From: Nitratireductor sp. GISD-1A_MAKvit
Lineage (GTDB): Bacteria > Pseudomonadota > Alphaproteobacteria > Rhizobiales > Rhizobiaceae
DNA: 64,000 nt
Assembly (NCBI RefSeq): GCF_040819555.1
Contig: NZ_CP161920.1
Location: 1,177,001 to 1,241,000, forward strand
Reading direction: 5' to 3'
Shown: piece by piece, positions 21,458-58,993 of the stretch
How positions within the stretch are numbered: the first letter of the stretch is position 1
Layout of the letters: each line of letters begins with the position of its first letter
The notes under the pieces: model-generated
Told to the model about the DNA's origin: nothing
What the model saw: the letters and a program-made list of their open reading frames with translations, nothing else
The model's database searches: none
Position numbers and translations under genes: made by a program

Positions 21458-21563
21458 CGGCTTGTCCTGCGTGTGAATGCGGGTATGGTTGCTGGATGAG
21501 GCCGTATCTGCCCCTCTCCATCTTCTCTAGCGGTAGCATTCATTTTCAAGCTAGGCAATTATG

Positions 21564-21581
21564 TGTTCAATATTTTGAGCA
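21564..21581. promoter_or_regulatory. Near-palindrome between aminotransferase and XRE-cupin genes
   Basis: TGTTCAA-TATT-TTGAGCA, an inverted repeat with one mismatch, lies in the 267-base AT-rich divergent promoter region. It is a candidate operator for the adjacent regulator; further copies of a TTCAA/TTGAA half-site lie nearby (around 21546 and 21600). Binding is not shown. Confidence 0.35.
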
Positions 21582-21724
21582 ACGATGAGGCGCGACGCTT
21601 GAATTCGAGTGATACTCTCGTTGAATAAGCATTGTGCATCGGGGTTCAGGGCAATATCTTGAGCGATATAGCGGCCTGGAGACGTATACGCATCGTGGTG
21701 AAGGAAGGAACGGGCGAACAGCAT

Positions 21725-22306
21725 ATGAATGAATTCGACATCGGCTCCCGCCTAAGAGCCATGCGCACGGCGGGCAATCTTTCGCAGCGACAGCTTGCCG
21801 AGCAGGCCGGTGTTCCTCACGCTCAGATTTCCAACATCGAGAAGAACAAGATCAGCCCCTCGATCTCCACCCTGCGCAAGGTGCTTGGCGGTATGGGTGT
21901 CAGCATGGCGGATTTCTTCGAACCTGAGCGGGAGGACAATCCCGGCCCGTTCTTCGGCAGGGATGAGCTGATCGATCTCACTTCGCGGGTGGCGATCAAT
22001 GCAAATGCACCCGAGAGCGGGCTTCTGGTCCTCAGGCAGATTGGCGATGCGCGCCTGCACAATCTCCAGATCCTGCACGAGGTCTATGAACCGGGCGCTG
22101 ATACCGGCGAGACCATGCTGCAGCACGCCTCAAGCGAGGGGGGCTTTGTGGTGGAGGGTGAACTGGCGCTGACCGTTGGTGATGAAACACGCATCCTGAA
22201 GGCCGGCGAATCCTATCTGTTCGACAGTCGCCAGCCACATCGTTTCCGCAATCTCTCAGACAGGCGCACCATCGTCGTGTCCGCCTGCACGCCGCCCTAT
22301 CTTTGA
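21725..22306 (+). CDS. XRE-family regulator with C-terminal cupin domain (PuuR-like)
   Basis: A 193-residue two-domain protein. Residues about 7-62 form an XRE helix-turn-helix (LRAMRTAGNLSQRQLAEQAGVPHAQISNIEKNKISPSI); residues about 115-190 form a cupin_2 ligand domain (GETMLQHASSEGGFVVEGELALTVGDETRILKAGESYLFDSRQPHRF). This architecture is that of PuuR, the repressor of putrescine utilisation in E. coli. ATG 21725 gives the expected start; the longer upstream frame is not protein-like and its Shine-Dalgarno is poor. It is divergent from the aminotransferase-Pot operon and 107 bases before the dipeptide importer, so it could control either. Confidence 0.88.
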   Translation: MNEFDIGSRLRAMRTAGNLSQRQLAEQAGVPHAQISNIEKNKISPSISTLRKVLGGMGVSMADFFEPEREDNPGPFFGRDELIDLTSRVAINANAPESGLLVLRQIGDARLHNLQILHEVYEPGADTGETMLQHASSEGGFVVEGELALTVGDETRILKAGESYLFDSRQPHRFRNLSDRRTIVVSACTPPYL

Positions 22307-22413
22307 GGCGGTGTCATATTCAACAGGCTGGACCAACGCAACGCAATCATGGCCCTGTTCCTGCCCGGCGCGATTTTTAAACTTCCGTTGGCTGGCAAAA
22401 GCGAGGGTTTCCG

Positions 22414-24024
22414 ATGACCGGTTTTCTGATTTCGCGACGCAATCTTCTCCTTGCCGCAGGTGCGTTGATGACGGCAGCCCTGCCGATGGCGCAGGCATGG
22501 GCAGAGGACGCACCACGCGGAGGAAGGCTGGTGGTGGCGGCCGATTCCGAGCCGCGCACGCTGAACCCGGCAATCGTCGCGTCGAATGGTGTGTTTTTCA
22601 TTGCCAGCAAGGTGATCGAGCCGCTGGCCGAAGCCATGATGGATGGCGAGGGCGGGCTTGCGCCACGCCTGGCCACAAGCTGGGAAGGCTCCGAGGACGG
22701 GCTTTCCGTCACCTTCAAACTGCGAGAGGGCGTGACCTGGCACGATGGCGAGCCATTCACCTCGGCGGATGTGGCCTTCTCCGCGATGGAGGTCTGGAAG
22801 CCGCTGCAAAATCTTGGCCGCGTGGTGTTCGCAAACCTCGATACGGTGGAAACGCCCGATGCGCACACCGCAATTTTCCGCTTTTCCGCGCCCACGCCGA
22901 TCCAGCTCATTCGCAATGCACTGCCGGTGGTAACGAGCGTTTTGCCAAAGCACCTCTATGAGGGCACGGACATTGCCGCCAACCCGGCCAACAAGGCACC
23001 GGTGGGAACGGGACCGTTCAAATTCGCCGAGCACAGGCCCGGCGAATATTATCGCCTCACGCGCAACGACGCTTACTGGGGCGAGGAACTGCCGAAGCTC
23101 GACGAGATCGTTTTCCGCGTTCTGCCAGACCGGGCGGCGGCGGCTTCCGCGCTGGAGGCAGGCGAAATCCAGCTTGCGGCCTTCTCTCAGGTGCCGCTGG
23201 TCGATCTGGAGCGCATCGCCAGCGTGCCGGGCCTGAAAGTGGTGACGGAGGGCTATGAGGCGCTCACCTATCAGCTTGTGGTGGAGATCAACCATCGCAA
23301 CGAGATCCTCGCCGACCAGAGGGTGCGGCAGGCCCTGTCGCACGCCATCGACCGGGAATTCGTGGTCGACACGGTGTTTCTTGGCTATGCGCAGGCGGCC
23401 ACCGGCCCGGTGCCGCAGAACGCGCCGCAATTCTACAATCCCGATGTGAAACCCTACGCCTTCGACATCGAGCGGGCGAACAGGCTTCTCGACGAGGCGG
23501 GGTATCCGCGCGGCGAAGATGGCAAGCGCTTTTCGCTGCGCCTCCTGCCGGCACCCTTCTTCAGCGAAACGCGCCAGTTCGGCGATTATCTGCGTCAGGC
23601 GCTCGGCAAGGTGGGCATCGACGTGACACTGGTCAACAACGACACGCCGGCCCATCTGAAGGCGGTCTACACGGATCATGATTTCGACATCGCCGTCGGC
23701 TCGCCCGTGTTTCGCGGCGACCCGGCCATCTCGACCACGATCCTCGTGCAGTCGGGCATCCCGGATGGCGTGCCGTTTTCCAATCAGGGCGGCTACGCCA
23801 ATGCCGAGCTCGACACGATCATCGATCAGGCTGCCGAGACCATCGATACGGAGGCGCGCACAGCACTCTACAACGACTTCCAGCGCATCGTTGTGGAAGA
23901 CCTGCCGCTGATCAATGTCGCCGAATGGGGCTTTACCACGGTGGCCAGTGACACCGTTCTCAATGTGGGCAACAATCCGCGCTGGCCGGTCTCCAACTGG
24001 GCCGACACCGCACTCGCTCCCTGA
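22414..24024 (+). CDS. Dipeptide/oligopeptide ABC transporter substrate-binding protein
   Basis: A 536-residue family 5 extracellular solute-binding protein (DppA/OppA class). The N-terminus FLISRRNLLLAAGALMTAALPMAQAWA has a twin-arginine SRRNLL motif, so export by Tat is likely, with cleavage after AWA. Landmarks: LAPRLATSWEGSEDGLSVTFKLREGVTWHDGEPFTSADV and GTGPFKFAEHRPGEYYRLTRNDAYWGE. It opens a five-gene plus-strand operon for a complete importer. Ligand may be peptides, opines, glutathione or nickel complexes; sequence alone does not say. Confidence 0.9.
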   Translation: MTGFLISRRNLLLAAGALMTAALPMAQAWAEDAPRGGRLVVAADSEPRTLNPAIVASNGVFFIASKVIEPLAEAMMDGEGGLAPRLATSWEGSEDGLSVTFKLREGVTWHDGEPFTSADVAFSAMEVWKPLQNLGRVVFANLDTVETPDAHTAIFRFSAPTPIQLIRNALPVVTSVLPKHLYEGTDIAANPANKAPVGTGPFKFAEHRPGEYYRLTRNDAYWGEELPKLDEIVFRVLPDRAAAASALEAGEIQLAAFSQVPLVDLERIASVPGLKVVTEGYEALTYQLVVEINHRNEILADQRVRQALSHAIDREFVVDTVFLGYAQAATGPVPQNAPQFYNPDVKPYAFDIERANRLLDEAGYPRGEDGKRFSLRLLPAPFFSETRQFGDYLRQALGKVGIDVTLVNNDTPAHLKAVYTDHDFDIAVGSPVFRGDPAISTTILVQSGIPDGVPFSNQGGYANAELDTIIDQAAETIDTEARTALYNDFQRIVVEDLPLINVAEWGFTTVASDTVLNVGNNPRWPVSNWADTALAP

Positions 24025-24047
24025 TAACGCAAGGAAAACCCACTGGC

Positions 24048-25037
24048 ATGCACCGGGCCCTGACCTTGACGCGGCGGCGTATCGTCAGCAGCATTCCGGT
24101 GCTGATGATCGTCATTGTGGGCACCTTCCTGCTTCTGGAAGCAGCACCGGGTGATGCGGTGGATGCCTATCTCCTTTCACTGGGGGGCGGCGATGCGGGG
24201 CTTGTGGCGGAGCTTCGCCAGAGCTACGGGCTCGACCAGTCGCTCGTGAAGCGGCTAACGCTCTATGTGGGCGCGCTTCTGCGGTTCGATCTCGGCTGGT
24301 CGGTGACGTTCGACCGGCCGGTTCTCGACCTGATCGCGGAGCGTCTGCCCAACACGCTGTGGCTCATGGGCGCGGCGACGGCGCTTGCCTTCTCGCTCGG
24401 TTCGCTGCTTGGCGTCGTGGCGGGCGCGCGGCCGGGAAGCCTGACCGACCGGGCGCTTTCCATCGGGTCTCTGGCGCTCTATGCGATTCCGAGCTTCTGG
24501 CTCGGCCTCGTGCTGGTTCTGGTGTTCGCCGTCGACCTGCGCTGGTTTCCCACGGCCGGCATCGAAACCATCGCTTCCGGCAAGACCGGTCTGGCGCGCG
24601 CGGTCGATATTGCCTGGCATCTGGTGTTGCCGGTTTCCGCGCTCGGTTTCATTTACCTCGCTCTTTTCCTGCGCATGATGCGTGCGGGCATGGCGGAAGC
24701 CTGGCGGCAGGATTTCGTGCTTTTTGCGCGCGCCAAGGGGCTTGCGCAGCGGCGCATCGTGCTGCGCCATGTGGCGCGCAACGCGCTTCTGCCGCTGGTC
24801 ACCATGCTTGGCCTGCAGGCAGCAGCCATGCTGGGTGGCAGTGTGGTGGTGGAAAGCGTGTTTGCCATTCCGGGGTTTGGGCGGCTTGCGCATGAAGCGG
24901 TTTCTGGCCGCGATGCGCCGCTTCTGACCGGCATCATCATCGTCAGCGCGGTGCTCGTGATCGTCGTCAATCTTCTGGTGGACATTGCCTATGCGGCTCT
25001 CGACCCGCGCGTTGGCAGTGGGGAGACGTCGTCGTGA
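24048..25037 (+). CDS. Dipeptide-type ABC transporter permease (DppB class)
   Basis: A 329-residue permease with the DppB N-terminal signature (GTFLLLEAAPGDAVDAYL), a long periplasmic stretch (LRQSYGLDQSLVKRLTLYVGALLRFDLGWSVTFDRPV) and coupling loop DFVLFARAKGLAQRRIVLRHVARNALLP. About six hydrophobic segments. The next gene starts at a GTG that overlaps its stop (GTGA). Confidence 0.9.
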   Translation: MHRALTLTRRRIVSSIPVLMIVIVGTFLLLEAAPGDAVDAYLLSLGGGDAGLVAELRQSYGLDQSLVKRLTLYVGALLRFDLGWSVTFDRPVLDLIAERLPNTLWLMGAATALAFSLGSLLGVVAGARPGSLTDRALSIGSLALYAIPSFWLGLVLVLVFAVDLRWFPTAGIETIASGKTGLARAVDIAWHLVLPVSALGFIYLALFLRMMRAGMAEAWRQDFVLFARAKGLAQRRIVLRHVARNALLPLVTMLGLQAAAMLGGSVVVESVFAIPGFGRLAHEAVSGRDAPLLTGIIIVSAVLVIVVNLLVDIAYAALDPRVGSGETSS

Positions 25038-25867
25038 ACCGCGTTGCAGCGCGTCTCTTGCGATCGCCTGAAGGGGTGGCGGGGCTTTGCCTTCTGGTGC
25101 TGCTTGCCGCCATGGCGCTTGCTGCGCCGCTTCTTTTTCCGGGCGATCCGCTGACGATTGTCGGGCAACCTTTGACCGCGCCCTTCACCGATGCGGGTGT
25201 GCCGCTTGGCACCGACCGGCTGGGGCGGGATGTGGCAGCGGGCCTGATGCATGGCGCGCAGACATCGCTTCTCGTCGGGCTCGCCACGGCGCTGGTTGCG
25301 CTCACCTCTGGTGCGCTTGTGGGCACGGTTGCCGGGCTTGCCGGCGGGCTGGTGGACGAGGCGCTGATGCGGGTGGTGGAAGCGTTTCAGATCGTGCCGG
25401 GGTTCCTTCTGGCGCTTGCCTTCGTCAGTGTCACGGGGGCATCGCTTCCGGTGATCATTCTCGCCATTGCCCTTGGCGCATGGACCGGGCCGGCGCGGCT
25501 GGTGCGTGCGGAAGTCCTGTCGATCCGTGAGCGCGACTACGTGGCGGCGGCGCGGGTGATCGGCATGCACCCGGCGGAGATCGCGTTGCGCGAAGTGTTG
25601 CCCAATGCGCTGCCGCCGATTCTGGCGCTGACGGCGGTGATCGTCGCGACGGCGGTTCTGGTGGAGGCGGCGCTCTCGTTTCTCGGGCTTGGCGATCCCA
25701 ATGTGGTGACCTGGGGTTCCATGATCGCCGAAGGGCGCAATGTTCTGCGCACCGCTCCGCACCTCTCCATCGTTCCGGGGCTGGGCCTCGTGGCCACCGT
25801 GCTTGGCGTTTATCTTCTGGGCGAGGGGCTGGCGGATGCCATGGCAGGCCGCAAGGTGCGCGGATGA
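25034..25867 (+). CDS. Dipeptide-type ABC transporter permease (DppC class)
   Basis: A 277-residue permease starting with GTG, translationally coupled to the upstream permease. Landmarks: GVPLGTDRLGRDVAAGLMHGAQTSLLVG (DppC signature) and coupling loop RDYVAAARVIGMHPAEIALREVLPNALPPI. The C-terminus AMAGRKVRG is typical of the DppC class. ATGA overlap with the next gene. Confidence 0.9.
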   Translation: MNRVAARLLRSPEGVAGLCLLVLLAAMALAAPLLFPGDPLTIVGQPLTAPFTDAGVPLGTDRLGRDVAAGLMHGAQTSLLVGLATALVALTSGALVGTVAGLAGGLVDEALMRVVEAFQIVPGFLLALAFVSVTGASLPVIILAIALGAWTGPARLVRAEVLSIRERDYVAAARVIGMHPAEIALREVLPNALPPILALTAVIVATAVLVEAALSFLGLGDPNVVTWGSMIAEGRNVLRTAPHLSIVPGLGLVATVLGVYLLGEGLADAMAGRKVRG

Positions 25868-26661
25868 GCGCGCCGCTGGCCGTAATCCGGGGGCTCTCGG
25901 TTTCCTTCAGGCGTGACGATGCGCAATGCTTTGCGCTTCAGGGCGTCGATCTCGAGATCGCGAAAGGCCGCCGGCTGGCGGTGATTGGTGAAAGCGGATC
26001 GGGCAAGAGCACGCTGGCGCTGGCGATCGCCGGGCTCTTGCCGCCGCAGGCGCGGATTGAGGGAGCTGTCGGCTGGCCCGGCCTTGCGCATTCTCCCGTG
26101 GCGGGGCGTGACATCGGCATGGTGTTTCAGGACCCCGGTGGCAGCCTCAACCCGGTTCTGACCATTGGCGAACAGGTGACGGAAGGCGCGGTGCGGCATC
26201 TGGGGCTCGACTGGCGCGCGGCGCGGTCGCATGCGCTGGCCCTGCTTGAGCGGGTGCGCATTCCAGATCCGCAGGCTGCACTTCTTGCCTATCCGCATCA
26301 GTTTTCCGGCGGCCAGCGCCAGCGCATCGCCATTGCCGCCGCCATTGCGGCGCGGCCGGGGCTGCTGATCGCGGATGAACCCACGAGCGCGCTCGACATG
26401 GTGGTGCAGGCCGAGATCGAGGAGCTGCTCGACGAACTGGTGCGCGAGGCCGGCATGACACTGGTCTTCATCACGCACGACATCGCGCTCGCTTCCAGGT
26501 TCGCCGACGACATTGCCGTTTTCCAGCGGGCGCGGCTGGTGGAGAAAGGCCCGGTGCAGGCGGTACTCGCGCAGCCAGCGCATGCCTATACGAAGCACCT
26601 TCTTGCCGCGCAGATCGACTTTTCAACACCGCGCCTGATCGACGGGGTGGCCAATGTCTGA
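25864..26661 (+). CDS. Dipeptide-type ABC transporter ATP-binding protein (DppD class)
   Basis: A 265-residue ATPase: Walker A GESGSGKST, Q-loop VFQDPGGSLNPVLT, signature FSGGQRQRIAIAAAI, Walker B LLIADEPTSALD and H-loop FITHDIALAS. It lacks most of the usual C-terminal oligopeptide-transporter extension (family length about 320), ending shortly after HAYTKHLLAAQ. Overlaps the next gene by 8 bases. Confidence 0.9.
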   Translation: MSAPLAVIRGLSVSFRRDDAQCFALQGVDLEIAKGRRLAVIGESGSGKSTLALAIAGLLPPQARIEGAVGWPGLAHSPVAGRDIGMVFQDPGGSLNPVLTIGEQVTEGAVRHLGLDWRAARSHALALLERVRIPDPQAALLAYPHQFSGGQRQRIAIAAAIAARPGLLIADEPTSALDMVVQAEIEELLDELVREAGMTLVFITHDIALASRFADDIAVFQRARLVEKGPVQAVLAQPAHAYTKHLLAAQIDFSTPRLIDGVANV

Positions 26662-27439
26662 GCCGCTTCTCGTTGCGCAGAACCTCTGCAAGACGTTCAT
26701 CAGCCGAGGGCGCAGGGTGACGGCGCTGGATGATGTGAGCCTGACGATCGCTCCAGGCGAAACGCTGGGTCTGGTGGGCGCGTCCGGCAGCGGCAAGTCG
26801 ACGCTCGCGCGGGTGCTGCTCAGGCTCTTGCCGGCGGATGCGGGGACGGTGCGGCTTCAGGGCGAGGACTGGCTCAAGCTTCGCGGGCAAGCACTGCGCA
26901 GGCAGCGCCGGGTGATCCAGATGGTGTTTCAGGATCCGCTTGCCGCCTTCAATCCGCGCGCGACCATCGCCGGTGTGCTGGCGGACCCGCTGCGCATCCA
27001 TAGCCTTGCGGACCGTGCCGCACGGCCCATGCAGGTGGGTGCACTTCTGGAGCGTGTCGGTCTTCCCGCGAGCCATGCCGCGCGCATTGTTCACGAAGTC
27101 TCGGGCGGTGAGCGCCAGCGTGTCGCCATCGCCCGCGCGCTTGCCGTTCGTCCGTCGCTGATCGTGTTCGATGAGCCTGTCTCCGCGCTCGACCAGTCGA
27201 TACGCGCCGGGATTCTGAAACTCATCGCTGATTTGCAGAAAAGCGAGGGCCTCTCCTACCTCTTCATCGCGCATGACCTCGCTGTCGTGCGTCTTGTTTC
27301 CCATCGGGTGGCGATCATGGAGAGTGGCCGTATTGTCGAGACGGGACCAACGCCACAGATCATCGACAACCCGCAATCGCCGGCGGGCAGGGCGCTTGTG
27401 GCAGCAGTGCCACGCCCTCGCTATCGTCGCACTCCATAG
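26654..27439 (+). CDS. Dipeptide-type ABC transporter ATP-binding protein (DppF class)
   Basis: A 261-residue ATPase: Walker A GASGSGKST, Q-loop VFQDPLAAFNPRAT, Walker B LIVFDEPVSALD and H-loop FIAHDLAVV. The signature reads VSGGERQRVAIARAL; the usual leucine before SGGE is Val. Like its partner it is shorter than typical DppF, ending at PRPRYRRTP. Last gene of the importer operon; about 100 bases separate it from the next plus-strand gene. Confidence 0.9.
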   Translation: MSEPLLVAQNLCKTFISRGRRVTALDDVSLTIAPGETLGLVGASGSGKSTLARVLLRLLPADAGTVRLQGEDWLKLRGQALRRQRRVIQMVFQDPLAAFNPRATIAGVLADPLRIHSLADRAARPMQVGALLERVGLPASHAARIVHEVSGGERQRVAIARALAVRPSLIVFDEPVSALDQSIRAGILKLIADLQKSEGLSYLFIAHDLAVVRLVSHRVAIMESGRIVETGPTPQIIDNPQSPAGRALVAAVPRPRYRRTP

Positions 27440-27538
27440 GCTGAGGGCAATCGCATATCGCGGGTTGCGCAGTCTTTGCGCGATAACGCTATAGTGTCGA
27501 CGAAACGCAAAACCCGTGCAAACCCGGAGTCATCGTTC

Positions 27539-30215
27539 ATGACGATCCGCAATCTCGAATACGCCGCCCGCCCGTGCTCCGTTGCCGTCATCGGTGCTTC
27601 AAGCAGGCCCGGCGCCGTTGGTCATATCGTCATGCAGAACCTGCAGGATGGCGGGTTCGATGGAGAGATATGGCCCGTCAATCCGAAATACAGGGAAGTG
27701 GCTGGCCGGCGCTGCTACAAGCGCGCTGCCGACATCCCAGGCATCCCGGACATTGCCGTCATCGTCACGCCCCCGAAAACGGTGCCGGGCATCATCTCCG
27801 AGCTTGGCGAGAAGGGGACGCGCACCGCGGTCGTCATCACCGCCGGGCTGACACGGGAAAACGGGCTGCGGCAGGCCATGCTCGACGCGGCAAAGCCCTA
27901 TCTTTTCCGGATCATCGGGCCGAACACGGTGGGGCTGATCGTGCCGCCGATGAATTTCAATGCCAGCTTCGCGCATATGCAGGCCAGACCCGGCGGGCTG
28001 GCTCTTCTGTCGCAGTCGGGGGCGATTGCCACTTCGCTGGTTGACTGGGCGGCGGCAGAGGGCGTTGGGTTCTCGCACATCGTCTCGCTGGGCGACATGG
28101 CCGACGTCGATGTGGGCGACTATCTGGAAATGCTCGCGGGCGACGGGCGCACGCGCGGCATTCTCATGTATCTCGAAACAATCCCCAATCCGCGCAAGTT
28201 CATGACCGCCGCCCGGGCGGCAGCGCGTCTGAAACCGGTGATTGCCATCAAGGCAGGCCGCCATGCGCAGGCGGCTCAGGCAGCGGCGACACACACCGGC
28301 GCGCTTTCGGGCGCAGACCGCGTGGTGGAGGCCGCGCTTCGCCGTGCGGGCATTCTGCGGGTGCTCGATCTTGGCGAACTGTTCGATGCGGCGGAAGTGC
28401 TAGCCCGGTTCCGGCCTTTGCAGCGCGCCCATGTGGGCATTGTCAGCAATGGTGGCGGGGCAGGCGTTCTGGCCGTGGACCGGCTCAACGATCTCGGCGG
28501 CACGATGGCAGAATTTTCGCCCGAAACCATCGCCCGCCTCGATCGGGCGCTGCCGCCCAACTGGTCGCACTCAAACCCGGCCGACATTATCGGCGATGCG
28601 CCGCCGGAGCGGTATAGCGAGGCGTTGTTGGCGGTGGCAGACGACCCCGACACGGATGCGGTTCTGGTGTTCAACTGCCCGACCGGGCTTGCCTCGCCCT
28701 CCGATGCGGCCCGCGCGGTTGCGGCCCATGCCGACAAGGGGCCGCGTGAACGGCAAGCCGCTCATCACCTGCTGGCTGGGCGAGGAGACGGCGCGCGAGG
28801 GGCGTCGCATCCTGCAGGAAGCGGGCATTGCAAACTTCAGCACCCCATCCAGCGCCACGGCGGCGCTTTCCTATCTCGGCGAGTGGTCGCGCGCGCAGAA
28901 GGCGCTGACCCGTGTGCCGTCCAGCCGCAGCGAGGATGTTGAGGGAGATCGCGAAAGCCTGCGCGCCATCCTTGAAAAGGTCGCAGCCGAAGGTCGCCGA
29001 ATGCTGACGGAACCGGAGGCCAAGGCGGCCATTGCCGCTTACGGAATTTCCGTGCCTGAAACCGTGATTGTCGAGACACCAGAAGCGGTGAGTGAGGCCA
29101 CTGCACGCTTGCTCGAAAGTTCGGAGAAGGTTGTCGTCAAACTTCTTTCCAGAACCATCACGCACAAATCGGATGTGGGCGGCGTGGTGCTCGGTCTCAA
29201 GACGCCGGAAGCGGCGCAGAAGGCCGCCGAGAACATCATGAAGCGGCTGGACGATGCGGGCATGGCGGACGGGCTGGAGGGCTTTGCCGTACAGCCCATG
29301 GTGGTGCGCAAACACGCCCATGAGCTGATCCTCGGTGTCAGCCAGGATCCCATTTTCGGTCCTGTTGTCCTGTTTGGCGCGGGGGGCACGGCGGTGGAGG
29401 TGATGGAGGACACGGCCATTGCACTGCCGCCGCTCGACGACGTTCTGGCCGGCGACCTGATGGCGTCGACCCGCATAGGCAGGCTGCTTGCCGGCTATCG
29501 CGATCGCGCGCCCGCCGACAGGGGAGCGATTGCCGGTGCACTCAATGCCGTGTCGCAGATGATCGTCGATTTCCCCTGCATCAAGGGCATGGACATCAAC
29601 CCGCTGTTGGCCGATGCCGATGGCGTTGTCGCGCTTGATGCACGCATCGAGATCGAGCCTGCGGAGATCCACCGCAAGGGGCCCAACCCCGACCTCGCCA
29701 TCCGGCCCTATCCCTCCGGGTGGGAAAAGGATGTGAACCTTGAGGGACACCGCTATCATCTTCGCCCGATCAAGCCGGCGGATGTGGCGCTGTTTCCCGA
29801 TTTCCTGGCGCGCGTTTCGCCGGAGGATATCCGGTTTCGCTTCCTCGCCCCGCGAAAGCACTTTCCCGATGAAATGCTGGAGCGGCTGACCCAGCTCGAC
29901 TATGAGCGCGACATGGCTTTCATCGCGCTCAGGGAAGAGGATGGGGAGATGGCGGGAATTGGCCGCCTATCCGCTGATCCCGACAAGGAGATCGCCGAGT
30001 ATGGCCTGCTTGTGCGCACGGACCTGCAGGGTCACGGGCTTGGCTTCGCGCTGCTGAAACAGCTCATCGACTATGGCCGGGAAGAGGGCATTGGCGCCAT
30101 AGAGGGCATCGTTCTGAGCGACAACACCAAAATGCTCGCCATGTGCCGCGATTTCGGTTTCGTGGTGAAGAACAGCGGCGAGGCTGGCGTGATCACGGTG
30201 GTGCTGGAGCTTTAG
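27539..30215 (+). CDS. Acyl-CoA synthetase (NDP-forming type) fused to GNAT acetyltransferase, frameshifted as sequenced
   Basis: About 891 residues. Order: CoA-binding domain (PCSVAVIGASSRPGAVGHIVMQNL), succinyl-CoA-ligase-like domains (GLALLSQSGAIATSLVDWA; THTGALSGADRV), ATP-grasp domain (KLLSRTITHKSDVGGVVLGL; PIFGPVVLFGAGGTAVEV) and a C-terminal GNAT domain (GHRYHLRPIKPADVALF; EYGLLVRTDLQGHGLGFALLKQLIDYG). The frame breaks at GGGG 28738-28741; removing one base joins AAHADKG to RVNGKPLITCWLGEE. The architecture matches the protein lysine acetyltransferases Pat/YfiQ (Pka), whose ligase part is usually inactive. Such enzymes acetylate acetyl-CoA synthetase and other proteins. A catalytic acyl-CoA ligase role is the alternative. 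Confidence 0.87.
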
Positions 30216-30270
30216 CGGCGCGGTTGCGGGGGTGATGGTGCGTGCCCTTTTTTTGCTCAAGCGCCGAGCA

Positions 30271-30445: not shown

Positions 30446-31591
30446 TTAGATGCAGGCTTCGAACAGTGCCTTCGTGTTGGCAACGGTCAGCTTGACCGGG
30501 TTGCCGCCGGCACTCGGATCCTCCAGAGCCATTTCGACCATCTCGTCGATGCGGTCCGTGCCGACACCCATGTCGCCGAGGCGGTCGGGAATGCCGAGCT
30601 CTGCGCGAAGGCCCATGACGAAATCGAAGAAGCCATCGAACCCGCCAGAAATGCCCAGATAGGCGGCAGCAGCGTTGATGCGTTCCTCGATTGCCGGGCG
30701 GTTCATTTTCAGCACCGCCGGCATCACCACCGCATTGGTGGTTCCATGGTGTGTGTTATAGACCGCCCCGACCGGGTGCGAGACCGCATGGATGGCGCCG
30801 AGCCCTTTCTGGAAGGCGACCGCGCCCATGGCGGCTGCACTCATCATCTGCGCACGGGCTTCCAAATCGCTTCCGTTCTGAAAAGCCCGGGGGAGATATT
30901 CCTTCACCAGCCGCATTCCTTCCAGAGCGATGCCCTGGCTCATCGGATGGTAGAAAGGCGAGGAATAGGCCTCCAGACAATGCGCAAAGGCGTCCATCCC
31001 CGTGCCGGCGGTGATCGCCTTTGGCATGCCCACCGTCAGTTCCGGGTCGCAGATGACCACGGAGGGAAGCACTTTCGGATGGAAGATGATCTTCTTCACA
31101 TGCGTTTCGGAATTGGTGAGAACGCCCGCGCGCCCGACCTCCGAGCCGGTGCCGGCGGTCGTAGGGACGGCCACATTTGGTGCGATTTTCGACGCATCCG
31201 CCCGGGTCCACCAGTCGCCAATATCTTCGAAATCCCAAACCGGCCGCGTCTGGCCGGCCATGAAGGCGATCAGCTTGCCGAGATCGAGGCCGGAGCCGCC
31301 GCCAAAGGCGACCACGCCATCATGCCCGCCATCCCTGAAGACCTTCACCCCGGCTTCGAGGTTCTTCTCATTGGGGTTGGGATCCACGTCCGAGAACATT
31401 GCGCGCCCGAGGCCCGCAGCCTCCAGAATGTCGAGCGCATTCTTCGTGATGTCCATGCCGGCAAGACCCCGGTCGGTCACCAGAAGCGGCTTTGAAATAC
31501 CGGCCGCCTTGCAGGCCTCGGCCAGCTCCCTGATGCGCCCCGCGCCAAACCGTACAGCGGTGGGATAGGACCAGTTTCCTTCGAGCTTCAT
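30446..31591 (-). CDS. Iron-containing (group III) alcohol dehydrogenase
   Basis: A 381-residue NAD(P)-dependent dehydrogenase. Visible: nucleotide-binding GGGSGLDLGKLIAF, PTTAGTGSEVGRAGVL, metal-ligand helix GTGMDAFAHCLEAYSSPFYHP and the second ligand region GAIHAVSHPVGAVYNTHHGTTNAVVMP. ATG 31591 overlaps the stop of the aldehyde dehydrogenase gene (ATGA); the longer upstream frame overlaps that gene and is not family sequence. Last of a seven-gene operon with a glutamine-synthetase-like ligase and an aldehyde dehydrogenase. It would oxidise an alcohol to the aldehyde handled by the adjacent enzyme. Confidence 0.92.
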   Translation of the reverse strand: MKLEGNWSYPTAVRFGAGRIRELAEACKAAGISKPLLVTDRGLAGMDITKNALDILEAAGLGRAMFSDVDPNPNEKNLEAGVKVFRDGGHDGVVAFGGGSGLDLGKLIAFMAGQTRPVWDFEDIGDWWTRADASKIAPNVAVPTTAGTGSEVGRAGVLTNSETHVKKIIFHPKVLPSVVICDPELTVGMPKAITAGTGMDAFAHCLEAYSSPFYHPMSQGIALEGMRLVKEYLPRAFQNGSDLEARAQMMSAAAMGAVAFQKGLGAIHAVSHPVGAVYNTHHGTTNAVVMPAVLKMNRPAIEERINAAAAYLGISGGFDGFFDFVMGLRAELGIPDRLGDMGVGTDRIDEMVEMALEDPSAGGNPVKLTVANTKALFEACI

Positions 31592-32976
31592 GCCTGTTTC
31601 TTTCTCATGTGGTAGGATTTCGGACGGGTCAGATTGTGGTAGCCGATTTCCGACAGCGCGCCACCGCGCCCCGTGTTCTTGCACCCAGTCCAGCAAAGGG
31701 CCGGATCGAGATAGTCCGCGCGGTTCATGAAAACGGTGCCCGTTTCGATGTCGGCGCCAAGGGCCGCCGCGCGTTCGGGATCAGCGGTCCACAGCGAGGC
31801 GGTGAGACCGAACTCACAGTCGTTCATGAGATCGAGCGCCTCGGCATCGTTCTTCACCGGCATGATGCCGACAACGGGGCCGAAGCTTTCCTCGCGCATC
31901 ACCCGCATCTGGTGGTTCACGTCGATCAGTATCTGCGGCATGAGATAGGTGCCGCCGTCATCTTCCGGGAAGAGCTTTTTCTCGATCAGCGCCTTTGCGC
32001 CCTGAGCCAGCGCGTCTTCGGTCTGGCTGCGCACTTCGGCTGCGAAGCGCTTGTTGGCCATCGGCCCGATGGTGGTTTCCTCATCCAGCGGATTGCCGAG
32101 CTTGAGTTTGTTCACCCAGTCGACGGCCTTCTCGACAAAACTGTCGAAATGTTTCTCGGCAACATAGATGCGCTCGATGCCGCAGCAGCACTGTCCGGCA
32201 TTGAACATTGCGCCGTCCATCAGCCCGTCAACGGCCCAGTCAATGTCGGCATCCTCCATCACATAGGCAGGATCCTTGCCGCCAAGTTCGAGCCCCAGTC
32301 CGGTGAAGGTGCCAGCCGCAGCGCGCTCGATTGCGCGTCCGCCGCCGACCGAGCCGGTGAAATTGATGAAATCGAACGAACGCTCGCCAATCAGTTTCTC
32401 CGTCCCTGCATGATCGAGAAAGAGGTTGACGAACAGCTCTTCTGGAACACCCGCTTCATGAAAGGCGCGCACGATGCGCTCACCCACGAGCAATGTCTGC
32501 GTGGCATGTTTGATGGCCACGGCATTGCCGGCGATAAGCGCTGGAACAACCGTGTTGATGGCGGTCATGTAGGGATAGTTCCAGGGCGCGATGACACCGA
32601 CCAGCCCATGGGGAACGCGCTCGATACGGCGCGCGAAATCGTCGGAATCCTCCAGAACGATGGGTGCGAGGCCGCGCGCGGCAATCTCCGCCATATAGGA
32701 GGAGCGTTCGTTCATGCCGCCGAACTCGCCGCCATAGCGCACCGGGCGACCCATCATGTGGGCAAGCTCCGGCACCACCTCATCCTTCATCTCGTTGAGG
32801 CGGGCAATGCCGGCATTCACCAGCGCGATGCGCTCATCGAGCGGACGCGCGGCCCAGGCCCTTTGCGCCTGGCGGGCGCTGGCGAGAAGCCCGGCGGCCT
32901 TGTCGGGATCCATCACGGGGCGTTCGGCAAAGACCGAACCGTCGATGGGGGATATGCATTGCAGGGTTTTCGTCAT
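31588..32976 (-). CDS. NAD(P)-dependent aldehyde dehydrogenase
   Basis: A 462-residue ALDH-superfamily enzyme. Catalytic residues visible: Asn in PWNYPY, Glu in GLGLELGGKDPAYV and the nucleophile within FNAGQCCCGIERIYV, where three consecutive cysteines occur. FTGSVGGGRAIE is the cofactor loop. ATG 32976 was chosen because it lies one base past the preceding stop (TGACATG) and the family sequence begins SPIDGSVFAERP; the extra upstream frame overlaps the previous gene. Closest in appearance to succinate-semialdehyde and gamma-glutamyl-aldehyde dehydrogenases, but assignment by eye is not firm. Confidence 0.9.
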   Translation of the reverse strand: MTKTLQCISPIDGSVFAERPVMDPDKAAGLLASARQAQRAWAARPLDERIALVNAGIARLNEMKDEVVPELAHMMGRPVRYGGEFGGMNERSSYMAEIAARGLAPIVLEDSDDFARRIERVPHGLVGVIAPWNYPYMTAINTVVPALIAGNAVAIKHATQTLLVGERIVRAFHEAGVPEELFVNLFLDHAGTEKLIGERSFDFINFTGSVGGGRAIERAAAGTFTGLGLELGGKDPAYVMEDADIDWAVDGLMDGAMFNAGQCCCGIERIYVAEKHFDSFVEKAVDWVNKLKLGNPLDEETTIGPMANKRFAAEVRSQTEDALAQGAKALIEKKLFPEDDGGTYLMPQILIDVNHQMRVMREESFGPVVGIMPVKNDAEALDLMNDCEFGLTASLWTADPERAAALGADIETGTVFMNRADYLDPALCWTGCKNTGRGGALSEIGYHNLTRPKSYHMRKKQA

Positions 32977-32977
32977 G

Positions 32978-34346
32978 TCATGCTCTCTCAAAACCGCGCC
33001 TGACCTCCCAGTCGGTGATGCGGCGGTCATATTCGGATTGTTCCCAGCGGGCCGCATGGACATAGTGATCGACAACGTCGTCACCAAAGGCCGCACGCAG
33101 CATTTTCGAACCGTCGAGCGCGGTGGCGGCGTCGCGCAGGGTGTTGGGAATCTCTCGGACGCCCTCGCCTTCATACGCATCGCCGACAAAGGGCCGGCTC
33201 CAGCTCTCTCTTGTTCTCGATGCCATCAATACCTGCCGCGATCAGGGCCGCGAAGGCAAGATAGGGGTTTAGGTCGGCGCCGCCGACCCGACATTCCACG
33301 CGCACCGCTTTTGTATTCTCACCGCAGACGCGGTAGCCCGCCGTGCGGTTGTCGAACGACCAGATCGCCTTGGTTGGGGCGAAGGTGCCGGCCGCGAAGC
33401 GTTTGTAGGAATTGATGTAGGGCGCGAGGAAATAGGTGATTTCGCCGGCGTGGGTGAGCAGACCCGCCATATAGTGTTTCATCATGTCCGACATGCCGTG
33501 TTCGCCCGAAGGGTCGAAGAAGAGCGGCTTGCCGTCGAGTGTCCACAGCGACTGGTGAACATGCGAGGAACTGCCAGCGGCGTTGTCGTCCCACTTGGCC
33601 ATGAAGCTTATGGCCCGGCCTGCTTTCCAGGCGATCTCCTTGCAGCCATTCTTCACGATGGCGTGCCGGTCTGCCATGGTCAGCGCATCGGTGTAGCGAA
33701 CGTTGATTTCCGCCTGTCCGGCATCGGCCTCGCCCTTGGAGTTTTCCACCGGCACATCGGCGCTGTTGAGACCGTTGCGGATCGCCCGCATCACATCCTC
33801 CTCCTTGGAGGTCTGGAAGATGTGGTAATCCTCGTTGTAGGCACTGATGCGCTCCAGTCCGCGATAGCCTTTCGCCGCAGCTTCCTCGAAAGTGTCGCGG
33901 AACAGGAAGAACTCCAGCTCCGAGGCCATCATCGCCTTCATGCCCATGGCTTCCAGCCGGGCGACCTGCTTTTTCAGAATGGCGCGTGGCGAATGGGGCA
34001 CGTCTTCATGCGTGTGGTGGTCGAGCACATCGCACAGCACCAGCGCCGTGCCCTCCAGCCAGGGAATGCGGCGCAAGGTCGAAAGATCGGGCTTCATCGT
34101 GTAGTCGCCATAGCCCGCTGCCCAGCTTGTCGCGCGGTAGCCCTCGACCGTGAACATTTCCATGTCGGTGGCGAGCAGATAGTTGCAGCTATGTGTTTCC
34201 TCGAACGCGCTTTCGAGGAAGAAATCCACGTGGAAACGCTTGCCCATCAGGCGCCCCTGCATGTCGACCAGCGCCACGAGCACCGTGTCGATCTCGCCGG
34301 CCTCAGCCGCTGCCTTGAGGCTTTCCAAAGTCAGTTTGCCCGCCAT
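32978..34346 (-). CDS. Glutamine synthetase-like gamma-glutamyl-amine ligase (PuuA/GlnT-like), frameshifted as sequenced
   Basis: About 455 residues after correction. ATP-dependent ligase of the glutamine synthetase fold. Landmarks: ALVDMQGRLMGKRFHVDFFLE, MMASELEFFLF, GSSSHVHQSLW, and KAIWSFDNRTAGYRVCGENTKAVRVECRVGGADLNPYLAFAALIAAGIDGIE. It is not the assimilatory GlnA: length and context match the enzymes that join glutamate to an amine (PuuA for putrescine, IpuC for isopropylamine, GlnA4 for ethanolamine). The frame breaks in GGG 33191-33193; correction joins KRELEPA to FVGDAYEGEGVREIPNTL. Encoded after a TRAP importer and before aldehyde and alcohol dehydrogenases. Confidence 0.9.
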
Positions 34347-34417
34347 TCAATCCGTCCTGTCGGTGGTTTTTGGGTTTGGCCCCGGCTGTATCGCCGGGAC
34401 CATGTTTGTTTTTGGGG

Positions 34418-35471
34418 TCACCCGTAGCGATAGGGCGGACCGGCTTTCTGCATCAGGGAGCGGTAGTCGCGCAGGATTTTCACAACACGCTCCTTGCGCC
34501 CGCCTTCGGCAGCGATCTCGTCCCAGAATTTTTCCGCCTCGGCTTCCACGGTCGCCCATTCGGCGTCGGGGATGGTGGTGAGCTCCATCTTGCCACCATT
34601 GACGCGCAGGTCCGCTTCACCCGCCCAATACCAGTGCAGGCGGTAGTAGTGCGAGGAGTCCATCGCCAGCCGGAAGAGCTGCTTCAAATGGTCCGGCACC
34701 TCGTTCCAGCGGTCGGAATTGGCAAAGAAGGAGCCAACCCAGGCACCGCAGATATTGTTGGTGAGCAGATAGGGCGTCACGTCGGCCCAGCCCACCGTGT
34801 AATCCTCGGTGATGCCCGACCAGGCGATGCCGTCGAGCTCGCCCGTCTGCACCGCCACTTCCACGTCTTCCCATGGAAGCGTTACGGGAACGACACCGAA
34901 ACGGGAAAGGAACTTGCCGGCTGTCGGGAAGGTGAAGACGCGCTTGCCCTTCAGGTCTTCAAGGCTCTTGATGGGCTCCTTGGTGTTGAAGTGGCACGGG
35001 TCCCAGGAACCGGCCGAAAGCCATGTCACGCCTTCCACCTCGCCATAGGCCTCCTCCCAGATTTCGGCCAGCCCATGCTTGTAAAACAGCGCCTGAACAT
35101 CAAGCGAGTAACGCGTGGCGAAGGGGAAATAGCCGCCGAAAACCGACACATCCACCGGCGCGGCCATGGAATCGTCGTCCGACTGGACTGCGTCGATCGT
35201 GCCGTTCTGCATGGCGCGGAACAATTCGCCCGTCGGCACCAGCTGGTCGGCATAGTAGAGCTCGATTTCCATCTCGCCATTGGCCGCCTTGTTGAAGGCG
35301 TCGATGGCCGGTTTGACCACATGCTCGGCAAGGGGCCGCTCCGGCATAGGTCTGCAGCCGCCAGCGGATCGGGCTTTGCGCATGAACATAGGGCGTTGCT
35401 AGGGCCGTGGTGCCGGCTGCAGCCGCCGATGCCATGCCCGCTTTCTTGAGAAAGTCGCGTCTGTTTTGCAT
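34418..35471 (-). CDS. dctP: TRAP transporter substrate-binding protein DctP, frameshifted as sequenced
   Basis: About 350 residues. N-terminus MQNRRDFLKKAGMASAAAAGTTALATPYVHAQ is a twin-arginine signal, so Tat export is likely. Mature landmarks: LVPTGELFRAMQNGTIDAVQ and the FcbT1-type region GWADVTPYLLTNNICGAWVGSFFANSDRWNEVPDHLKQ, typical of amino/keto-acid-binding DctP proteins. The frame breaks at GGGG 35332-35335; correction gives QTYAGAALAEHVVKPAIDAF. GAGGAG lies upstream of the ATG. With DctQ and DctM it forms a secondary importer driven by an ion gradient. Ligand unknown. Confidence 0.9.
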
Positions 35472-35562
35472 CTTCGTTCACTCCTCTGGTTGTTGTCCCG
35501 GTCGTTGTTGCCGGGCATTGCCGCAGGCTTGTTCTGGTCGTCACCTCCTTGGTTGTTCGGCT

Positions 35563-36885
35563 TCAGCGTGCATAGACATGTTCAGGGAGCCATAGCGCGA
35601 TCTGCGGGAACGCCATGACAATGATCAGCGCGAACACCATCACAGCCACGAACGGAATAATGGATCGGTAGATGTCTGAGAGCCTGATTTCCGGCGGCGC
35701 CATGGCCCGCATCAGGAAGAGGTTGTAGCCGAAAGGCGGGGTCATATAGGCGATCTGGCAGGTGATCGTGTAGAGCACGCCGTACCAGATCAAGTCGAAA
35801 CCGAGCAGCTTGACGAGCGGCACATAGAGCGGGGCGACGATGACCAGCATCGCCGTGTCGTCCAGAAACATGCCCATGATGAGATAGGAAAGCTGCATCA
35901 GGATCAGCACTTCCCAGGGCGAGAGACCGAGCTGATCGAGGAAGAAACCCTCGATGGCCCTGACCGCACCCAGACCGTCGAACACTGCGCCGAAGCACAG
36001 TGCGGCCAGGATGATCCACATGAACATGCACGAGACCGAAAGCGTCTTGCGCACCGTGTCGTGGATCACCTTCAAGGTCAGGCGGCCGCGAATGGCGGCG
36101 GCGGCGGTTGCCGAGACGGCGCCGATGGCGGAGCTCTCGACAAGGCTGGTGACGCCCATCACGAAGAGCCCGGTCATCAGGAAAAAGATCATGAAGGGCA
36201 GAATGCCGGCTGACAGAAGCTTGAGCTTTTCCGACATCGAGATACGGCGTTCTTCGGCAGGAAGCACAGGCCCGAGGTTGGGCTGCAGCCAGCACCGCAC
36301 CGCGATGTAGAGAATGAAGAGCCCGGCCATCAGCAGGCCCGGAAACACGCCGGCGAGCCAGAGTTGGCCGACCGGCTGGCGCGCGATCATGGCGTAAAGA
36401 ACCAGCACCACGCTCGGCGGTACGAGAATGCCGAGAGAAGAACCGGCCTGAATGACGCCGGTCACCATGATCTTGTCGTAGCCGCGTCTAAGCAACTCGG
36501 GCAGGGCGATCGTCGCACCGATGGCCATGCCGGCGACGGAGAGGCCGTTCATGGCCGAGATGACGACCATGAGCGCGATCGTGCCGATGGCAAGTCCGCC
36601 ACGCACCGGGCCGAACCAGACATGGAACATCTTGTAGAGGTCGTCGGCAATCCCTGATTCCGACAACATGTAGCCCATGTAGATGAAGAGCGGCAGCGTC
36701 AGCAGAGCGTACCATTTCATCAGCTTCATGGCGGCGGAGAAGGCAATCTCGGAGCCGCCCGTGCCCCACAGCAACAGCGCAAAGGCTACGGCGATGAAGC
36801 CGATCGCGCCAAACACGCGCTGCCCCGTCAAGAGCAGTCCCATCATGCCGGTGAACATGAGGATCGCGGTCAGTTCGTAGCTCAC
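35563..36885 (-). CDS. dctM: TRAP transporter large permease subunit DctM
   Basis: A 440-residue protein with about twelve hydrophobic segments, starting SYELTAILMFTGMMGLLLTGQRVFGAIGF. Hallmarks: MSGLS-type region NGLSVAGMAIGATIALPELLRRGYDK and FLDDTAMLVIVAPLYVPLVK. I chose GTG 36885 because GGAGGAG is 5 bases upstream and the GTG overlaps the DctQ stop (GTGA); the longer frame starting with an ATG at 36969 lies within dctQ. Partner of the small permease encoded just upstream. Confidence 0.92.
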   Translation of the reverse strand: MSYELTAILMFTGMMGLLLTGQRVFGAIGFIAVAFALLLWGTGGSEIAFSAAMKLMKWYALLTLPLFIYMGYMLSESGIADDLYKMFHVWFGPVRGGLAIGTIALMVVISAMNGLSVAGMAIGATIALPELLRRGYDKIMVTGVIQAGSSLGILVPPSVVLVLYAMIARQPVGQLWLAGVFPGLLMAGLFILYIAVRCWLQPNLGPVLPAEERRISMSEKLKLLSAGILPFMIFFLMTGLFVMGVTSLVESSAIGAVSATAAAAIRGRLTLKVIHDTVRKTLSVSCMFMWIILAALCFGAVFDGLGAVRAIEGFFLDQLGLSPWEVLILMQLSYLIMGMFLDDTAMLVIVAPLYVPLVKLLGFDLIWYGVLYTITCQIAYMTPPFGYNLFLMRAMAPPEIRLSDIYRSIIPFVAVMVFALIIVMAFPQIALWLPEHVYAR

Positions 36886-37391
36886 GACAGCTCCTCCCCG
36901 CGAACCCGCGCAACATCCTTGCAGAGCTGGGCGATCGCCTGAAGCAGCGTCAGCGCGATGCCGATGCACATGATGATCTTGATCGGGGCCATGTAGGGCG
37001 ACCAGGCCGAATAGCTGGTCTCACCATATTTCAGCGCATAGGAGGTGGACGAAAAACCGCCATAGAGCAGAAGCGAGAGATAGAAGATCAGGAACAGAAC
37101 GGTGATGGAATCGACAATCGCCTTCGTGCGCGGCGTCCAGCGTGCATAGATCAGGTCCATGCGCACGTGTGCGTCATTCTGCAATGCCCAGCCTCCGCCG
37201 ACCATGTAGTAGGCAACCATGGCGAACTGTGCCATTTCCAGCGTCCAGAGCGGCGGGATGGCCACGGTCTTCATGATCGACGAATAGAGCAGGACGCCGA
37301 TCATCAGGAAGATCATGTACATGACCACCAGACCGACATAGTGGTTGGTCCGGTCGATCAGGCGCACATAGCGCCTTATGACGTTCGGCAT
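36882..37391 (-). CDS. dctQ: TRAP transporter small permease subunit DctQ
   Basis: A 169-residue membrane protein with four hydrophobic segments (YVGLVVMYMIFLMIGVLLY; WTLEMAQFAMVAYYMVGGG; SITVLFLIFYLSLLLYGG; MAPIKIIMCIGIALTLLQAI). The segment ALQNDAHVRMDLIYARWTPRTKAIVD matches the DctQ core (HVRVD). Overlaps dctM by 4 bases. Second gene of the operon, 64 bases after the amidohydrolase gene. Confidence 0.92.
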   Translation of the reverse strand: MPNVIRRYVRLIDRTNHYVGLVVMYMIFLMIGVLLYSSIMKTVAIPPLWTLEMAQFAMVAYYMVGGGWALQNDAHVRMDLIYARWTPRTKAIVDSITVLFLIFYLSLLLYGGFSSTSYALKYGETSYSAWSPYMAPIKIIMCIGIALTLLQAIAQLCKDVARVRGEELS

Positions 37392-37455
37392 CGGCTCCGG
37401 TCTCCCATTCTCGCTCCCCGTGTTCCCACTATGTTTGTTTGCCGGTTCTCTTTCT

Positions 37456-38250
37456 TCAGGCTTGTTGTGAACCGGCTGCGTGTATGTCGAAGCGCTCCAG
37501 CGCTGCCTCGAGCAAGCGCGTGGTAAGCGCCGCCCATTCGTCCTGTCCCTTTTCGGTGTCGATCAGGTCGCTGCAATATTCGATCATGACGTTGAGCAGG
37601 CCGTTCTGGACCGCATGCAGGCGCAGCGTGTGGGTCACGCCGTCATCGGGCCCGTAGGGGTAGTTGCGCATCGCATTGGTGATGCCATGTTCTTCTGCTT
37701 GCTGCAGCATGGTGTCCGCCAGCCTGCGGTCGCGGTCATGCAGAAGACCGATCGCGCGATGCCGGGCAGCGCCGAAATAGACGCGCGTGTATGAATGGAT
37801 GGTAACAATGACCGGCTGTCTGGATGGGCCGGTTCGCGCGGCTACCAGCGCCGCGAGCGCCTGGCGAAACGGTTCGTAGATTTCCGCGACACGCTGCTGG
37901 CGCGCTTCCCCCGAAAGATTGCGATTGCCGGGGATCGCGTGAATTTCACTCATCTCGGGAATGGCGTCCGGCGCCTCTGGCGGGCGGTTGCAATCATAGA
38001 CCAGGCGCGAGAAGCGCTGATGGACCAGCGGTGCATCCAGCAGCTGTGAGATTTTCTGTGCCGTTGCAAGCGCGCCAATGTCCCAGGCGGCATGGCTTGT
38101 CAGTGTGTCCGGCTTCACACCGAGGTTCGAGAGCGAGGCAGGAATCGTGCGGGAGGCGTGCTCGCAAACCAGGATCACTGGCGAACGTCCGCCCGCGCGT
38201 TCGATCTGGACCGGTTCGCCTTCCGATGGATCTAGAAGCGCTCTGATCAT
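37456..38250 (-). CDS. N-formylglutamate amidohydrolase family protein
   Basis: A 264-residue zinc amidohydrolase of the FGase/HutG2 family. Visible: VILVCEHASRTIPASLSNLG, RLVYDCNRPPEAPDAIPEMSEIHAIPGN, VTIHSYTRVYFGAARHRAIGLLHDRDRRLA and NGLLNVMIEYCSDLI. ATG 38250 has GGAGG 4-5 bases upstream; the frame extends further but without family sequence. No hut genes are nearby, so histidine breakdown is unlikely. As first gene of the TRAP/gamma-glutamyl-ligase operon, it could cleave the amide bond of a gamma-glutamyl intermediate; that is inference. A promoter and operator repeats lie just upstream. Confidence 0.87.
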   Translation of the reverse strand: MIRALLDPSEGEPVQIERAGGRSPVILVCEHASRTIPASLSNLGVKPDTLTSHAAWDIGALATAQKISQLLDAPLVHQRFSRLVYDCNRPPEAPDAIPEMSEIHAIPGNRNLSGEARQQRVAEIYEPFRQALAALVAARTGPSRQPVIVTIHSYTRVYFGAARHRAIGLLHDRDRRLADTMLQQAEEHGITNAMRNYPYGPDDGVTHTLRLHAVQNGLLNVMIEYCSDLIDTEKGQDEWAALTTRLLEAALERFDIHAAGSQQA

Positions 38251-38290
38251 GAAACCTCCACAAACCCGCCCACACCCGTGCAGCGGAACT

Positions 38291-38342
38291 GTAATAATGA
38301 TTAGCATTGCCGGTATTTTGTCAATTGTGTAATTTCTATTAC
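38291..38342. promoter_or_regulatory. Two GTAAT-N4-ATTAS repeats, candidate RpiR operator
   Basis: GTAAT-AATG-ATTAG (38291-38304) and the perfect inverted repeat GTAAT-TTCT-ATTAC (38329-38342) are spaced by 38 bases start to start, close to an integral number of helix turns. Both lie in the short AT-rich gap between the divergent amidohydrolase and RpiR genes. RpiR-family proteins bind short inverted repeats of this kind in their own promoter regions. No experimental support. Confidence 0.5.
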
Positions 38343-38375
38343 GGATCGGAATCGAGAGCTTCGGGGGAGACGCGT

Positions 38376-39227
38376 TTGGCAATCAGGGAGCAGGTTCACG
38401 AGGCACTCGCTCAGATGACCGATGCCGAGCGCAAGGTGGCGCATGCGTTTCTTGCCAACTATCCCAGCAGTGGCCTGTCCAGGGTTGCTGAATTCGCCGA
38501 TCTCGCCGGGACGAGTGCGCCGACCGTTCTGCGTTTTGTCTCGCGGCTGGGTTATTCCGGGTATCCCGAGTTCCAGCGGGCCTTGCGCCTTGAGATACAG
38601 GCGGAGCTGCTTTCCCCGCTTGAAAAGGGAGACGGCTCTGCGGCGCGTAGTCTGGACGGTTCAGCGCTTGGTGCATATTTCGCGCGCGCCACCGCCAATA
38701 TCCAGGCGACACTTGAGGCGATCCCCGAAAGCGAGTTCGAGGCGGCCTGCGCGTTGCTCTCCGATCCGAAGGTCGCTTGCTACACGCTGGGTGGGAGGTT
38801 CAGCGACGCCATTGCGCGCTACATGGCCTCGCATCTACGCATTGTGAGGCCCAATGTGCGCCGTTTCCAGGATCAGACTTCCACGTGGGACGATCAGTTG
38901 CTGGACGTGAAGGCGGGGGATGTGGTGGTTCTGTTCGACATTCGCCGCTACCAGCGCGACCTTGTGCATCTGAGCGAGCTTCTGTGCGAGCGCAAGGCGC
39001 GCATCGTGCTCATCACCGATGGCTGGCTTTCACCGATTTCACGTTATGCCAAGGTCGTGCTGCCCTGCGCCATCGATGCGGGACGCACCTGGGATTCAGG
39101 GGTGGTTCTGATGGCGCTGGTGGAGGCGATTGTCGACCGCGTGACACACGGTGACTGGGAGACCGCGCGTGAGCGCATACAGGCACTGGAGCATATTCAC
39201 TGGAACAAGCCGACTGTCGCTGACTGA
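38376..39227 (+). CDS. RpiR/MurR-family transcriptional regulator
   Basis: About 283 residues: N-terminal HTH_6 domain (EQVHEALAQMTDAERKVAHAFLANYPSSGLSRVAEFADLAGTSAPTVLRFVSRLGYSGYPEFQRAL) and C-terminal SIS domain (CYTLGGRFSDAIARYMASHLRIV; GDVVVLFDIRRYQRDLVHLSELLCERKARIVLITD). I place the start at TTG 38376 because GGGGGAG lies 6 bases before it; the ATG at 38307 would extend into the operator-like repeats. SIS domains usually sense phosphosugars, which is unusual for control of an amine operon. Divergent from the TRAP/gamma-glutamyl operon, its likely target. Confidence 0.87.
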   Translation: MAIREQVHEALAQMTDAERKVAHAFLANYPSSGLSRVAEFADLAGTSAPTVLRFVSRLGYSGYPEFQRALRLEIQAELLSPLEKGDGSAARSLDGSALGAYFARATANIQATLEAIPESEFEAACALLSDPKVACYTLGGRFSDAIARYMASHLRIVRPNVRRFQDQTSTWDDQLLDVKAGDVVVLFDIRRYQRDLVHLSELLCERKARIVLITDGWLSPISRYAKVVLPCAIDAGRTWDSGVVLMALVEAIVDRVTHGDWETARERIQALEHIHWNKPTVAD

Positions 39228-58977: not shown

Positions 58978-58993
58978 CTTGATTGTCCTGTTT

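Follow-up and report, generated by a model that had tools for sequence, protein, structure and literature searches.

A predicted EtoVWX-type ethanolamine operon acting through gamma-glutamylation in Nitratireductor sp. GISD-1A_MAKvit

Which compound is imported and degraded by the minus-strand operon in the middle of our window, the window being the whole stretch of 64,000 nt analysed here, inside the 4.1 Mb genome of Nitratireductor sp. GISD-1A_MAKvit? Gene families, called by Pfam profile search, place in this operon, in order of transcription, a hydrolase of the N-formylglutamate amidohydrolase (FGase) family, the DctQ, DctM and DctP subunits of a tripartite ATP-independent periplasmic (TRAP) importer, a ligase resembling glutamine synthetase (GS), an aldehyde dehydrogenase (ALDH) and an iron-type alcohol dehydrogenase (Fe-ADH), with a gene for an RpiR-family protein reading divergently (table 1). 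A preliminary description of the locus had claimed this minus-strand gene content and order, which Pfam matches bear out for every gene, and had proposed an amino alcohol as substrate. That class of substrate has stood up, and it is narrowed here to ethanolamine by the match of the substrate-binding protein (SBP) and by a published operon. The locus is, very probably, the EtoVWX ethanolamine operon.

In the pathway that we infer for this strain, for its enzyme steps as for its substrate, the TRAP importer EtoVWX would take up ethanolamine, which the GS-like ligase would couple to the gamma-carboxyl of glutamate, using ATP. The Fe-ADH would oxidize the resulting gamma-glutamylethanolamide to an aldehyde, the ALDH would convert this aldehyde to gamma-glutamylglycine, and the FGase-like hydrolase would cleave gamma-glutamylglycine into glycine and glutamate; since this last step would free glutamate, the latter would be recycled. 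Regulation of the operon probably falls to the RpiR protein. Import, gamma-glutamyl ligation, two oxidations and amide cleavage by the FGase-like enzyme had already been proposed in that succession for an amino alcohol; the scheme fits the sequence tests reported below and equals the published ethanolamine pathway.

The substrate is indicated by EtoX, the DctP-type SBP. Residues 19-322 of its piece match PDB entries 4uab and 4xf5 with an E-value of 2.5e-150 (next structure: 1.5e-14), which places it in the Csal_0678 (4UAB) subfamily. In published work, 4UAB is given as Csal_0678 with ethanolamine (PMC12410723), and the carboxylate-selecting Arg is reported to be absent from Csal_0678 (PMC4646407). 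In our alignment, the window EtoX has a Phe opposite an Arg of 4pet, and a Phe stands there in 80 of 80 relatives; the carboxylate-selecting Arg appears to be missing from EtoX, if the Arg of 4pet is, as we infer, the canonical one. The four best named SBP matches are all from Nitratireductor, at 98-100% identity. Within the genus, a separate observation concerns Nitratireductor pacificus (L042), whose SBP shows only 83% identity, against 94% for DctM and 89% for the ligase; these values hint that the SBP gene alone may have been replaced there.

The closest structures to the ligase are PDB entries 5dm3 (E 2e-167) and 11zs (1e-157), the next one standing at 8.1e-42; 5dm3 is presumably Csal_0679, which adjoins Csal_0678. 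Alignment to 1hto puts a Phe in place of the flap Glu (Glu327 of the ammonia-using GS), in an alignment that leaves out the part around Asp50, and the same Phe occurs in 23/23 relatives with a ligase of this type, hereafter GS-I. Likewise, a model of GlnA4 has a Phe (F331) at the Glu327 place, PauA7 has a Trp, and the loss of Glu327 and Asp50 is interpreted there as pointing to a larger amine substrate (PMC6529630).

Conservation was assessed over 80 EtoX loci, several of them cut by contig ends and none dropped; these are the best 80 of at least 570 matches and therefore lean to close relatives. A gene-neighbourhood check for the combination of FGase, TRAP importer, GS-like ligase, ALDH and Fe-ADH, suggested along with the preliminary description, finds it conserved: all eight genes lie in the same order and orientation at 17 of the 80 loci, the lowest identities being 35% (RpiR) and 39% (FGase). 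On this comparison of sequences, the eight-gene set is more than a chance association. An RpiR match on the strand opposite the TRAP genes is found at 31 of the 80 loci. A GS-I ligase, 65-97% identical to that of the window, is present at 23, and FGase accompanies it at 22 of these.

Several observations weigh against the ethanolamine reading. In EtoX, the Glu of the motif GITED is kept in 80 of 80 relatives; by the chain's own count it is residue 217, which makes it the nearest Glu to Glu220 of 4UAB, the platform residue for ethanolamine, but only an uncertain counterpart of it. No GS-like match lies in the fetched flank of 20 of the 80 EtoX loci, two of which have FGase. Among 14 of these 20 genomes that were searched, 11 have a ligase elsewhere (two of GS-I type, 60-62% identical, and nine of a second type, GS-II, 52-73%), and three have no ligase of either type elsewhere at E 1e-60. 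In one of the 14, L057, FGase adjoins the TRAP genes but the ligase, of GS-II type, is encoded elsewhere. The status of the Chromohalobacter pathway also differs between sources, being ‘demonstrated’ in PMC10132767 and ‘predicted in an in silico approach’ in PMC6529630. Finally, the DctP and ligase genes of the window are both broken across two reading frames, near 35,33x and 33,19x, respectively. As to the loci without a nearby ligase, EutB, of the ethanolamine ammonia-lyase route, is encoded in one of the three ligase-less genomes; a general replacement of glutamylation by EutB was rejected, as only one of 13 such genomes (one of 16 examined) has it.

The two frame breaks, unreported in the preliminary description, bear on a possible decay of the operon in this strain, with DctP and ligase truly broken and neither import nor ligation left. 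Both breaks are indeed present in the assembly sequence, the ligase falling into pieces at 33171-34346 and 32978-33187. However, DctP is open at 352-359 residues in nine of nine same-genus relatives, and the frame-shifting difference at the ligase break is absent from both same-genus genomes compared (G001 and G008). Moreover, both breaks sit at GGCC sites, and there one-base insertions pile up. Counting only isolated one-base indels at a local identity of at least 0.8, GGCC is the site of 7/9 indels in the window against G008 and 9/11 against G001, all of them insertions. Elsewhere in this genome, a second region of 80 kb (approx. 49.5 kb aligned) gives corresponding figures of 6/10 and 5/10, with insertions making up 9/10 and 8/10 of the indels. 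For random contexts, the chance expectation of GGCC is 7.5% and 8.6% in the two regions, respectively. A third gene of the window is broken at a GGCC site (27476-30215, plus strand); reading of its translation names it as acyl-CoA synthetase-like with a C-terminal acetyltransferase-like part. The broken pieces are still 98-100% (DctP) and 93-97% (GS) identical to four Nitratireductor loci (L002-L005). On the side of decay, the genome has no match to PF00145, the C5-cytosine methylase family, so that methylation of this kind, a candidate cause of read errors at GGCC, is unsupported. Taken together, the GGCC-site insertions look like a systematic assembly error, and errors of sequence probably account for both frame breaks; therefore, the operon is probably working, and we regard its decay as unlikely. 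A systematic error of this sort is likely to create false pseudogenes in this assembly.

The same pathway might have as its main substrate another small amino alcohol (alaninol, propanolamine or serinol), or several of them, and the enzyme set would indeed serve any HO-R-NH2. In addition, the second structure entry, 4xf5, has the same sequence as 4uab, and its ligand is presumably L-alaninol. Against this alternative, the SBP belongs to the type whose structure was solved with ethanolamine, and the binding and induction data of the related system concern ethanolamine (PMC10132767). A main substrate other than ethanolamine consequently seems to us quite improbable.

With ethanolamine as the preferred substrate, the last step would fall to the FGase-like protein, for which the Pfam name of PF05013 could equally suggest an ordinary N-formylglutamate deformylase merely adjoining the operon. 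Yet this protein reaches only 25.8 bits on the HutG model TIGR02017, the cut-off of which is 278.75, whereas another of the five FGase-family genes of the genome, at G000:C2:718530, scores 366.4 bits. Judged by these profile scores, a separate true HutG is encoded there, and the window protein (E 1.9e-75 against PDB 2odf) is a member of the FGase family but not HutG, a role that was accordingly ruled out. The link of FGase to GS-I loci (22 of 23) also argues against a chance neighbour, and we hold the deformylase alternative to be very unlikely. In the two dehydrogenases, candidate functional residues are conserved: three columns of the ALDH (two Cys, one Glu), which we take to be catalytic, in 57/57 loci with a match, and one Asp and four His columns of the Fe-ADH, presumably belonging to the metal site, in 56/56 or 55/56 loci, the odd locus lying outside the aligned part. 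A putrescine or other polyamine pathway of the Puu type, which has a GS-like ligase and an ALDH in common with the operon and whose gamma-glutamylputrescine synthetase model NF045547 does match the ligase, was ruled out as scarcely credible, because the larger ligase piece, albeit scored without its C-terminus, gives 184.8 bits and the smaller one 24.6, far under the cut-off of 650, and because FAD oxidase and glutamine amidotransferase (GATase) are absent among the ten operon pieces scanned with Pfam, an alcohol dehydrogenase being there instead.

Beyond the window, the EtoX loci differ in their ligase. The GS-II type, approximately 34% identical to GS-I, is found at 37 of the 80 loci and has a Trp at the Glu327 place in 37/37. 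FGase is in the flank of none of these 37 loci, and at 18 of them there is a class-I GATase-like gene, identified as PF00117 in a Halomonas locus (L067:7992-13084); a further 17 of the 37 have both dehydrogenases and neither hydrolase in the flank. One locus (L080) combines GS-I and FGase with a GATase match. The pairing of GS-I with FGase is strong but not absolute, because of the FGase of L057 with its GS-II ligase elsewhere. We tentatively suggest, with somewhat less than even confidence, that one ethanolamine importer has been joined to two separately assembled, non-orthologous enzyme sets: GS-I with FGase, and GS-II with, at about half of its loci, a class-I GATase-like hydrolase. A literature search, thin on subscription journals, retrieved no GATase-type version of the pathway described in a title or at the start of an abstract, and the association of one importer with two enzyme sets is the sole part of our results not found described in that search. 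The split between GS-I and GS-II loci offers a direct test of which hydrolase families are able to cleave gamma-glutamylglycine.

The layout of the operon is collected in table 1. Three of its six junctions are tight, DctQ/DctM and ALDH/Fe-ADH overlapping by 4 bases and the ALDH starting one base past the ligase stop; the overlapping or 1-base junctions that had been described for most of the operon hold for these three, while the remaining three leave 64, 91 and 71 bases between genes. For the FGase gene, earlier given a start near 38376-38382, the ATG at 38250 is the better start, because the longer form, from TTG, runs into the divergent regulator. The start codon of the latter is itself uncertain, its longest form beginning at TTG 38307.

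Table 1. Genes of the putative ethanolamine operon and its divergent regulator, with positions in the window.
Gene product	Position	Strand	Remarks
RpiR-family regulator (HTH_6 + SIS)	38307..39227	+	Pfam HTH_6, SIS; divergent; outside the range of the preliminary description
FGase-family hydrolase, proposed gamma-glutamylglycine amidohydrolase (GGAH)	37456..38250	-	PF05013, 131 bits
DctQ small permease (EtoV)	36882..37391	-	PF04290, 73 bits
DctM large permease (EtoW)	35563..36885	-	PF06808, 228 bits; GTG start
DctP substrate-binding protein (EtoX)	34418..35471	-	PF03480, 80 bits; TAT signal; frame-broken
GS-like gamma-glutamyl ligase (putative ETAGA, GS-I type)	32978..34346	-	PF00120 (Gln-synt_C), 287 + 45 bits, two pieces
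Aldehyde dehydrogenase (putative GAADDH)	31588..32976	-	PF00171 (Aldedh), 374 bits
Iron-type alcohol dehydrogenase (putative GETADH)	30446..31591	-	PF00465 (Fe-ADH), 162 bits; PF25137

Two further observations were made in this genome. One is a second cluster beyond the window (L114; G000:C2:3506000-3521000), in which an FGase-family hydrolase and a GS-like ligase are joined by an RpiR regulator, a branched-chain-type ABC importer, an isochorismatase-family protein, a class-III aminotransferase and a 1014-residue APH/M23/aminotransferase fusion; from its gene content, it is perhaps another gamma-glutamylation pathway. In addition, the window flanks 20345-30250 and 57034-64000 align to G008 in an orientation opposite to that of the block 30438-56580, and a rearrangement has therefore taken place here between the two genomes.

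How does this operon compare with known systems? For the pathway of Chromohalobacter salexigens and Agrobacterium tumefaciens C58, the likeness lies in the SBP, of the same subfamily as Csal_0678 (E 2.5e-150), and in the ligase, close to PDB 5dm3 (E 2e-167), which we take to be Csal_0679. Vetting et al. (2015) is the work cited for the ethanolamine pathway of Chromohalobacter and Agrobacterium (PMC10132767), and it is cited in PMC4646407 as well. The EutBC ethanolamine ammonia-lyase route has the same substrate, but EutB has no match in the genome of the window. The GlnA4 pathway of Streptomyces coelicolor (SCO1611-1615) comprises, like the window, a gamma-glutamylethanolamide synthetase, two predicted dehydrogenases and an FGase-family hydrolase (PMC6529630); unlike the window, no TRAP transporter is mentioned for it in the available text of that paper, and its regulator is EpuRI (PMC9397018). 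De-glutamylation by the FGase family, presented in the preliminary description as a new role, had already been predicted: SCO1615, of the formylglutamate amidohydrolase family, was proposed as gamma-glutamylglycine hydrolase in 2019 (PMC6529630), and this role is restated in PMC9397018.

The closest likeness is to Phaeobacter sp. MED193 (MED193_10021-10056), in which RpiR, GGAH, EtoV, EtoW, EtoX, ETAGA, GAADDH and GETADH form a single operon (PMC10132767, 2023). There, the levels of five of the proteins go up on phosphorylethanolamine, and a dissociation constant (Kd) of 7.9 uM was measured for ethanolamine and EtoX (PMC10132767). Compared by description (Fig. 5 legend and Table 2 of that paper), all eight genes, their order, the proposed chemistry and the type of importer are alike, and no difference in gene content is seen, two of the window genes being frame-broken, probably by sequence error. 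The earlier statement that no system with this exact set plus a TRAP importer had been described does not survive this comparison: the chemistry of the preliminary description was right, its claim of novelty was wrong, and the system is already known. As the same gene set and order had been described in a marine bacterium, the operon of the window is an ordinary one. Our finding extends the published operon to another genome, and its value lies mainly in annotation: here, the names ‘N-formylglutamate amidohydrolase’, ‘glutamine synthetase’, ‘iron alcohol dehydrogenase’ and ‘DctP’ should be replaced by those of the ethanolamine pathway.

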